Source: Saccharothrix espanaensis DSM 44229 (lineage in GTDB: Bacteria > Actinomycetota > Actinomycetes > Mycobacteriales > Pseudonocardiaceae). Taken from it: DNA of 64,000 nt. Made by a program: the position numbers and the translations under genes. The stretch covers positions 868,001 to 932,000 of the forward strand of contig NC_019673.1 of assembly GCF_000328705.1 (NCBI RefSeq), read 5' to 3'. Shown one piece after another: positions 1 to 35,556 of this stretch. Under the pieces are notes generated by a model. That model was given only the letters and a program-made list of their open reading frames with translations. It did no database searches and had not been told where the DNA came from. How positions within the stretch are numbered: position 1 is the first letter of the stretch; every line of letters starts with the position of its first letter.

Positions 1-80
1 GCGCAAGCGAAGAGCGTGCTTGCGCTCCCTGACCAAGCGCGGTTGCCCTGCGGGCAGGCCATACGGGGAGACCACGCGGT
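1..80 (+). repeat. Truncated copy of hairpin repeat element
   Basis: The window opens inside a copy of the element found whole near 24.5 and 35.1 kb. Bases 1-8 are the end of the left stem arm, 9-17 the loop (GAAGAGCGT) and 18-37 the right arm. Then come CGCGGTT and a GGCCATACGGGGA-like terminal repeat at about 58-70. The 8 visible left-arm bases (GCGCAAGC) are the exact complement of the first 8 of the right arm. The right-arm core differs from both other copies. Bases 81-124 hold nothing recognisable. Confidence 0.7.
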
Positions 81-24467: not shown

Positions 24468-24494
24468 TGCGCCAGCACAGACCACCCAAAGAGT

Positions 24495-24620
24495 CGTGTC
24501 ATCCCCGTATGGCCCGCGCGCCAGCGAACCGCGCTTGAGTAGGTAGTGCAAGCACGCCCTTCGCTTGCACTACCTACTCAAGGGTGGTTGTCTTTGACCG
24601 GGCCATACGGGGATGACACG
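24495..24620 (-). repeat. 126-bp palindromic repeat element, copy 2
   Basis: Terminal inverted repeats of about 22 bp (CGTGTCATCCCCGTATGG... / ...CCATACGGGGATGACACG) enclose a 20-bp perfect inner stem (24534-24553 with 24563-24582) and a 9-nt loop, ACGCCCTTC. Its reverse complement aligns over its whole length with 35078-35203. Differences are one GG/AA dinucleotide and five stem positions, each compensated in the other arm. It does not encode protein. Confidence 0.88.
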
Positions 24621-24824
24621 ACGTCCCACGCTCTTAGTCATCCTTGGCGGCTCGCCCGTCCGGCGAGGACGCTCTTCTTCTCGCCGCCCGGCTCGACCGT
24701 GCACTCGGCTCGACCAGCGCGCCCGGTAACGACCGCTCATTGGCGAGTCCAAGGCAAAAGCACTGGTCAGAGCGCCGCAGAAAGCTCAGGCGCGGCCGCC
24801 GGCCCCCGACACCATTATCGCACG
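24621..24824 (-). repeat. Side module of the repeat element, copy 2
   Basis: Blocks also found next to the 35-kb copy: GTCATCCTTGGCGG followed by CTCGCCCGTCCGGCGAG (a small hairpin) at 24638-24672, and GCGCGGCCGCCGGCCCCCGA with CACCATTATCGCAC at 24791-24824. The block between them differs in length (about 120 bp here, about 60 bp in the other copy). The rest of the gap (24825-25067) shows nothing recognisable. Confidence 0.7.
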
Positions 24825-34671: not shown

Positions 34672-34722
34672 CCTGGCTCGGTCGCGTGCGACTGGCCCTG
34701 CGGGTTGCGCTCGGTTCGGCGC

Positions 34723-34910
34723 GTTCCGCCAGGTCGTACGGCTGAGGGCGTTTCGCAGGTCGTACGGCTGAGGGCGTTTCGCAGGGCGTGCGGCTTGGGA
34801 TGTTCCGTAGGTCGTGCTCGGCTTGGGGCGTTGCGCGGGTTGTACGGCGTGGGGGCGTTTCGCGGGTTGTACGGCGTGGGGCGTTTCGCAGGTCGTGCGA
34901 GGCGCGAGCG
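34723..34910 (+). repeat. Degenerate 26-28 bp tandem repeat, about seven units
   Basis: The unit approximates TTTCGCAGGTCGTACGGCTG plus AGGGCG. Units start near 34723, 34750, 34776, 34802, 34830, 34857 and 34883. Copies differ by a few substitutions and 1-2 bp indels. No protein-like reading frame. It lies directly before the repeat element's side module. Confidence 0.65.
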
Positions 34911-34943: not shown

Positions 34944-35077
34944 GTGGGATAATGGTGATCGGGGGCCGGCGGCCGCGCCTGGGTGGCGTTGCGGGTGGGT
35001 TGACCTGGGGGAACAAGCTAAAAGAGTCCTCGCCGGACGGGCGAGCCGCCAAGGATGACGGGCAGTGCGGTGGGCGT
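34944..35077 (+). repeat. Side module of the repeat element, copy 3
   Basis: Reverse-oriented equivalent of 24621-24824. GTGGGATAATGGTG, then a GGGGGCCGGCGGCCGCGC block, then about 60 bp of spacer, CTCGCCGGACGGGCGAG and CCGCCAAGGATGAC. Orientation is inverted relative to the 24.6-kb copy. Confidence 0.7.
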
Positions 35078-35203
35078 CGTGTCATCCCCGTATGGCCCGG
35101 TCGGAGACAACCACCCTTGGGCAGTGAGGGCAAGCGAAGGGCGTGCTTGCCCTCACTGCCCAAGCGCGGTTCGCTGGCGCGCGGGCCATACGGGGATGAC
35201 ACG
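35078..35203 (+). repeat. 126-bp palindromic repeat element, copy 3
   Basis: Same length and terminal inverted repeats as 24495-24620, in opposite orientation. The inner 20-bp perfect stem is 35116-35135 with 35145-35164; the loop GAAGGGCGT is the complement of the copy-2 loop. The stem core reads GGCAGTGAGGG where copy 2 reads AGTAGGTAGTG, both fully paired. The terminal repeats extend to about 25 bp here (CGTCGTGTC... / ...GACACGACG). Confidence 0.88.
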
Positions 35204-35206
35204 ACG

Positions 35207-35556
35207 CGGCAGGTGGATTGTGCGCTGCGCGCACTGGTGGGTGCGTGTGTGTGGTTCGGCTGAATGGGCGAAGGGGTGGGAGGGTCTGGGTCCGAAGTTT
35301 TGCCGTCGGGCTGACTTCGGGTGGTCCCTGCTGCTGGTCGTTGCGCAAACGGTCGTGTGTGTTCGGCTGTGGGGATGGCCGGGGTGGTCCGCGCTCGGGT
35401 GGGGTGGACTTGGGTGTTCGGGCTGGTCACGGTGGGTGGGTCGTGATATGCGGCGGGGGCTTCAGGTCACGGAAGCGTTGAGTTCCGGGTCACCCGTTTC
35501 GCGCTGTTCGCCCGCCCTTGGCAGGATGGGGGTGATCAGCAGAAGAGGTGGTCTCC
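35207..35556. other. Gene-free G/T-skewed stretch
   Basis: 350 bp with strong G over C skew on the plus strand and ORFs of unnatural composition only. It may hold the promoter of the gene at 35557. Nothing else recognised. Confidence 0.5.

Follow-up and report, generated by a model that had tools for sequence, protein, structure and literature searches.

The repeat at 35 kb and its copies in the window

The window, by which we mean the whole 64,000-nucleotide stretch that was analysed, covers positions 868001-932000 of the 9,360,653-base chromosome of Saccharothrix espanaensis DSM 44229. At 35 kb it carries a non-coding repeat (copy 1) in which a paired inner stem is enclosed by a longer outer stem, a second copy lies in the opposite orientation at 24.5 kb and a third is found at the left edge. 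Their features are as follows:

35020..35059, + strand, upstream module AAAAGAGTCCTCGCC..CCAAGGATGAC, which in two-hairpin units flanks both hairpins on their inner sides
35074..35099, + strand, outer stem left arm of copy 1 (type A, GTCATCC), 26 nt, 100% complementary to 35182-35207
35100..35108, + strand, 5' mini-hairpin GTC-GGA-GAC (from the alignment, by eye)
35116..35135, + strand, inner stem left arm of copy 1, with a variable core at ~35119-35130 and nearly constant ends CTT and CAAGC
35136..35144, + strand, loop GAAGGGCGT between the inner-stem arms of copy 1
35145..35164, + strand, inner stem right arm of copy 1, pairing with 35116..35135
35172..35181, + strand, 3' mini-hairpin CGC-TGGC-GCG (from the alignment)
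35182..35207, + strand, outer stem right arm of copy 1, complement of 35074-35099
24493..24622, - strand, whole hairpin of copy 2, orientation opposite to copy 1, left half of a unit
24534..24582, - strand, inner stem-loop of copy 2, arms 24534-24553 and 24563-24582
24637..24676, - strand, module of copy 2 (by eye against aligned modules)
1..77, + strand, copy 3, cut by the window edge; it spans 867950-868077 in the genome and is intact there

The inner stem of copy 1 pairs at 20/20 positions. An earlier note on this DNA had placed the paired 20-bp stem at exactly 35116..35164 and had counted five compensated core pairs between the 35-kb and 24.5-kb copies; both statements hold, and if anything the note understated the phenomenon. 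The third copy, which it took to be truncated, is whole in the genome and has perfect pairing throughout its inner 20 bp.

A single strand can be folded as a four-armed cross made up of the outer stem, the two mini-hairpins and the inner stem, with a predicted fold of -112.7 kcal/mol for copy 1; minimum-energy folds form the mini-hairpins in some sequences only. The hairpin unit is 121-150 nt long, a length of ~120-135 nt per half also being given. Across the aligned copies the 5' mini-hairpin reads, by eye, GTC-NNN-GAC or, in other genomes, GCC-GGA-GGC. The 3' mini-hairpin elsewhere has GCCC/GGGC or GGGC/GCCC instead of CGC/GCG, with 146/146 cells Watson-Crick and two-sided changes in two of its four pairs. 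The base that follows GGA in the module (e.g. 35050-35059) tracks the type of outer arm, with T accompanying type A in 56/56 copies and G accompanying type B in 28/28, the remaining 48 of 132 copies being untyped or having no module; the link probably reflects two co-inherited subfamilies. Tandem G-rich repeats of the GTACGGCTGAGGGCGTTTCGCAGG type lie at 34705-34900 of the window, between an acyl-CoA dehydrogenase gene and the element (by eye).

Distribution, two-hairpin units and site history

The S. espanaensis genome (G000) has at least 38 copies, 37 recognised by the loop pattern and one more, at 3264936, with a differing loop; the reversed control pattern gave one forward and no reverse match in the same genome. 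None of the 38 copies lies between 3.51 and 6.79 Mb, which has a probability of 8e-8 under uniform positions. This copy-free stretch may follow gene content, the core genes of S. espanaensis being described in its genome paper as clustering around oriC (PMC3469384).

BLAST found copies in 9 of the 25 genomes of the genus, S. espanaensis included. A covariance model, with up to 17 candidates scored per genome, extended the family to at least 39 of 200 genomes and at least 13 of 46 genera of the Pseudonocardiaceae, with 10 of the 39 in the genus, among the matches listed; G001 (S. algeriensis), G011 (S. obliqua), G018, G020 and G023 fall outside those matches. When the best matches of 16 genomes (13 of other genera, 3 of this genus) were folded, outer and inner stems formed in 16/16 with mostly different sequence, the structure model itself favouring paired matches. 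In 13 copies of Lentzea sp. NBRC 105346 (G208), inspected by eye, the cores vary with their arms matched and 10 share a common outer-stem mismatch, and in G002 and G010, which have a related class, the arms of some copies are unmatched. Plasmid and phage collections gave no match at blastn sensitivity, and carriage of the repeat by either was rejected. One S. espanaensis copy (L431, at 8084745) has an inner-arm stretch, TTTTCCGGGGGGTGC, in common with S. algeriensis copy 4677018 and unlike the other S. espanaensis cores seen; this core has possibly moved between species.

A complete unit consists of a hairpin on the - strand, a centre and a hairpin on the + strand, and many of the copies sampled from S. 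tamanrassetensis (G021), G003 and S. algeriensis are of this kind. The hairpin midpoints lie 279-348 bp apart in 26 pairs (~0.3 kb), and four further pairs, from G018 and G023, include another stem class. This second class (e.g. L066, L164) has an imperfect, differing inner stem and a long loop, and is the partner of the first class in the same unit. The layout, non-coding with two inverted ends and present in multiple copies, is that of a miniature inverted-repeat transposable element (MITE), with many copies, the window copies among them, being single halves. Unit centres have features of their own: those of G003 and S. tamanrassetensis (e.g. L148) hold further palindromes such as AAGCTTCTTCGAAGCTT, and those of G018 and G023 hold arrays of short GCGC-rich repeats. 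In S. obliqua a 237-aa frame with a creatininase-family look, by eye, lies between the hairpins of one unit (L109, 1182-1895), where the orthologous units L119 and L149 have ~0.3 kb in its place; whether this frame is a captured passenger gene is a question we raise here.

At the 35-kb site, 15 of the 20 loci retrieved were examined. The right half is present in S. espanaensis and S. obliqua, and S. tamanrassetensis has the left half, of the long-loop class with two A.C pairs in its arms. G003 retains a scar in which the module is joined to the outer arm at GGGCAGGCC, and S. algeriensis, G023, G007 and G008 have short spacers only. Overall, three species have a copy at this locus and a fourth has the scar. 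At the 24.5-kb site (11 of 18 retrieved loci examined) the left half occurs in S. espanaensis and S. obliqua and a pair in S. tamanrassetensis and G003, giving copies in four species, with no element seen by eye in S. algeriensis, G018, G023, G007, G008, G013, G004 and G024. Target duplications were sought at the element-free sites and none was definable, the intergenic flanks being too diverged to set ends; nor was a transposase flanked by hairpins, or an autonomous copy, recognised.

The repeat is itself entered by insertion sequences. Three copies, L031 (~974-2062), L033 and L034, at 3.00, 1.40 and 8.14 Mb of S. espanaensis respectively, have an IS30-like element at the identical point of the inner-stem base, between CAACCAC and CC (rve and HTH_38 domains, from a search of L031). 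Three copies, L025, L032 and L033, have an IS4-like element in the outer arm, at CATACGG (Nterm_IS4 and DDE_Tnp_1 domains, from a search of L032). In L034 an IS4-like element is bordered by an IS30-like end and, on its other side, by the outer arm.

Pairing and turnover of the inner stem

From 164 distinct copies 132 were kept, from five genomes, those of S. algeriensis, G003, S. obliqua and S. tamanrassetensis being a sample; a one-base shift was applied to fit copy 2929797. The copies set aside were seven long-loop stems of G018 and G023, all imperfect, two long-loop copies and one unparsed copy of S. algeriensis, and 22 copies of G016, G018, G020 and G023 whose stems differ in length or sequence. 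Nine of these 22 have one mismatched pair within the 17 bp beside the loop, eight of them C.A (six in identical copies of G020) and one A.A.

The inner 20 bp are perfect in 119 of the 132 copies and have mismatches in 13, with 16 of 2640 pairs non-Watson-Crick (5 G.T, 6 C.A and 5 other), and yet there are 72 distinct left arms. Each of positions 4-15 shows three or four Watson-Crick pair types, and positions 16-18 and 20 are invariant in 132/132. The note's claim that the stem changes fast whilst its pairing is kept is borne out, and neither stems that are mostly identical nor stems unpaired as often as the flanks diverge were encountered in the 132 copies. Wobble amounts to 0.2% on either strand of the inner stem against 3.7% in the tRNAs of the same genome (31 tRNAs at 30 loci, from 56 tRNA matches); the counts of G.T are 5/2640 and 24/650 (Fisher p = 4e-13), the copies being related so that p-values are a guide only.

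For 42 chosen sequences the paired share is 95.1% of 2102 cells, compared with 33-42% in slid controls, the tested structure being derived from the same 42 sequences, which favours the unslid version. The covariation that the note proposed to check is strong, with 330 of the 2102 cells changed on both sides and two on one side. None of 500 shuffles matched the observed values for cells paired, two-sided pairs, two-sided cells or covariation score, and 20/500 matched the observed pair types.

The outer stem behaves differently. Its 792 cells in these 42 sequences comprise 762 Watson-Crick, 2 G.T, 23 A.C and 5 other, with 18 of the 23 A.C cells in two columns; read on the other strand these A.C cells are G.U at 2.9%, near the tRNA rate. 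The mismatches thus have a strand bias in the outer stem (23 A.C to 2 G.T) and none in the inner stem (6 C.A to 5 G.T). At the inner-stem base (7 pairs) pairing fails in 63/294 cells, and two columns account for 48 of these. The near-absence of wobble is limited to the inner 20 bp, where it applies to both strands, and does not extend to the whole cross. As the A.C cells of the outer stem occur at a tRNA-like rate, the frame could still have a role as RNA or DNA, and any RNA function of the cross would more likely belong to the other strand.

Across 33 S. espanaensis copies per-site diversity reaches 0.5 in the core, and is 0 or 0.1 in most frame columns; higher values occur at two loop purines (0.5) and at a few sites of the outer arm (0.4). 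The note had described the flanks as nearly constant, which is right for the frame within the family and does not apply to the intergenic DNA beyond, which is unalignable between species.

Matching on both flanks gave 33 orthologous element pairs, of which the 22 with equal relative orientation were used and 11, in which opposite halves were compared, were excluded. Core identity is 66% within a genome (1873 pairs), 56% in the 22 orthologous pairs, whose flanks are 80-92% identical, and 52% in other between-genome pairs (n=6751), so that the cores of orthologues are slightly closer than those of random between-genome pairs (56% vs 52%). These identities suggest that the site is often inherited and its core renewed within the species; alternatively the orthologous copies may be independent insertions at the same gene borders. 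Six cores were found with both outer-arm types in one genome, which indicates that inner and outer parts reassort, and the arms of copy 7406276 fit two different cores, a mixture such as gene conversion would give.

Arms of the same genome that differ by one compensated change are of transversion type in 17 cases and of transition type in 14. This share of transitions (14/31) is below the 78.5% of two-step compensations that are wobble-type in RNA genes (p = 5e-5), is not clearly below the 61% of instantaneous changes that are transition-type there (p = 0.10; both values from PMC8794818), and does not differ from one third (p = 0.18). Neighbours that differ by two changes have them adjacent in 4/13 cases, and clustering is not clear.

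Possible origins of the paired cores and comparison with known systems

Judging from the comparison of copies, we lean narrowly towards the view that this non-coding repeat is old and was probably mobile once, and that DNA arm-to-arm copying would rewrite its inner stems, the results being spread by gene conversion. The sequence of the core would be only loosely constrained. After a mutation in one arm, DNA synthesis or repair templated by the opposite arm, through quasipalindrome correction or template switching at an extruded hairpin, would restore the change or double it in one step, and new cores would then pass from copy to copy by ectopic gene conversion. The frame would probably be kept by recognition of folded DNA by a protein, by a past role in transposition, or by a transcript that acts at the 3' ends of neighbouring genes. 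Compensation in two steps is expected to pass through wobble and to be rich in transitions, and therefore rare wobble together with transversions favours copying in one step; likewise, strict selection for pairing would slow the core, which is among the fastest parts of the element, and one-step copying accounts for both its speed and its pairing. Identical arms with doubled changes and no intermediates, as expected of a quasipalindrome, characterise the inner stem and, less well, the outer. Inverted loops, sometimes expected from template switching, were found in 0/132 copies, which counts against copying, as do the mismatches of the outer stem and of the inner base, the 9/22 mismatches among odd stems, the outer-stem mismatch common to 10 Lentzea copies, the unmatched arms in G002 and G010, the slightly greater likeness of orthologue cores than of random between-genome pairs, a share of transitions not clearly different from 61%, and two-change neighbours that are not clearly clustered. 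A dedicated enzyme system that recognises the four-armed frame and copies arm onto arm, giving a homing-like concerted renewal at fixed sites in place of passive repair, seems quite improbable.

The element could also be a structured RNA at the 3' ends of its neighbours (a terminator, stabiliser or sRNA), mainly on the opposite strand, with two-step compensation under selection, and the gene context is in keeping with this. Gene gaps with elements are convergent in 63 cases, divergent in 11 and tandem in 53, against 35, 40 and 66 in the background (convergent vs divergent p = 9e-7, unit pairs merged; the background comprises gaps no shorter than 150 bp in the window and in 80 loci fetched by the element pattern, pattern-bearing gaps removed; home-made gene calls from third-position GC), and the gene past the outer stem points toward the hairpin in 114/155 copies (81 convergent and 33 'tandem-'). 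The preference for convergent gaps fits either a 3'-end role or tolerance of insertions away from promoters. The predicted fold of copy 1 is stable, covariation is strong, and the A.C bias of the outer stem, which would be wobble on the other strand, led us to judge arm copying less likely and the RNA alternative more likely; that bias is, however, mostly in two columns and may represent few events. Wobble in the inner stem is ~20x rarer than in tRNAs on either strand, compensation of transversion type is as common as that of transition type, and a search of the window and 12 loci against Rfam 15 gave no family at gathering score, on which ground a known structured RNA was rejected. No T run, as in an intrinsic terminator, was seen by eye beyond the outer stem on either side of copies 1 and 2. 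Taken together we regard the RNA explanation as rather unlikely. A non-autonomous, MITE-like element that is still spreading, its copies differing through bursts of different masters and its enzyme needing the hairpin, would be compatible with both copying and a role as RNA; two inverted hairpin halves ~0.3 kb apart, presence and absence between species at both window loci, the S. espanaensis core found also in S. algeriensis, and the preference for promoter-free gaps all speak for it. The absence of any recognised hairpin-flanked transposase or definable target duplication, and the number of copies at orthologous sites, do not, and spreading alone leaves the origin of new paired cores unexplained, so that it is possible, if somewhat doubtful. 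Finally, the variable stem might be an address that points to a target, or to a partner, at another place in the genome, as the largely species-specific cores would allow, but for the one core searched, the commonest, 16/16 exact matches are the arms of eight hairpins and near matches number 55 vs 64 for a reversed control. With no free exact target for that core the guide-target idea was dropped, and an address appears hardly credible. Among the three causes that the note had proposed, arm-to-arm copying fits the core best, selection for an RNA hairpin alone fits it poorly, and a stem that specifies a target finds no support from the core tested.

By what route a perfect stem acquires a new sequence while avoiding unpaired and wobble states is a question still open in general. 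This repeat supplies dozens of parallel examples in each genome, its constant frame can act as an internal control, and related species carry orthologous copies, so that arm-to-arm copying and ectopic conversion can be measured under natural conditions. The work also adds a repeat family across the Pseudonocardiaceae that is a landing site for insertion sequences. We found no description of it in the literature searched, mostly non-subscription, so that its novelty is provisional, and the main text of the S. espanaensis genome paper (PMC3469384) has no occurrence of 'repeat' or 'palindrom'. By the features tested it is neither REP/RAYT nor an Rfam family, and its layout is MITE-like without proven ends or transposase.

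ERIC, BOX and NEMIS are bacterial intergenic stem-loop repeats, and REP/REPIN elements, associated with RAYT, are dispersed intergenic palindromes in inverted pairs with species-specific sequences. Integron attC sites resemble the present repeat in having a folded strand and a variable terminal structure. Like REP/REPIN the Saccharothrix repeat is dispersed, intergenic, palindromic, in inverted pairs and species-specific; however, REP sequences are described as 20-40 bp palindromes with a GTAG or CGTC tag (PMC3733652), and the Saccharothrix repeat is 121-150 nt long with four arms and, by eye, no constant GTAG or CGTC, CGTC being present at the outer-stem base of some copies. The Y1_Tnp domain (PF01797) has no match in seven of the nine element-bearing genomes (S. 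espanaensis, S. algeriensis, G003, G018, G020, S. tamanrassetensis and G023) and has matches in the other two, S. obliqua and G016; mobilisation as a REP by RAYT (TnpA-REP) was rejected on this and on the differences in length and tag. A survey of bacterial stem-loop repeats describes 92 families, likewise intergenic, with no mention of Saccharothrix or of compensated stems in the portion of that source at hand (PMC2267715). The double-hairpin or repetitive hairpin elements of mitochondria are also dispersed between genes and possibly mobile, and in those of sponges the stems are conserved and the loops vary, the reverse of what is seen in Saccharothrix (PMC2800124). There is also a likeness in behaviour to hairpins maintained by template switching, where stem changes are compensated without intermediates and arms are homogenised (PMC8794818; PMC8604942; PMC7202029); those cases concern RNA genes, yeast coding repeats and E. 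coli, whereas here a dispersed bacterial repeat is involved, with dozens of copies per genome.
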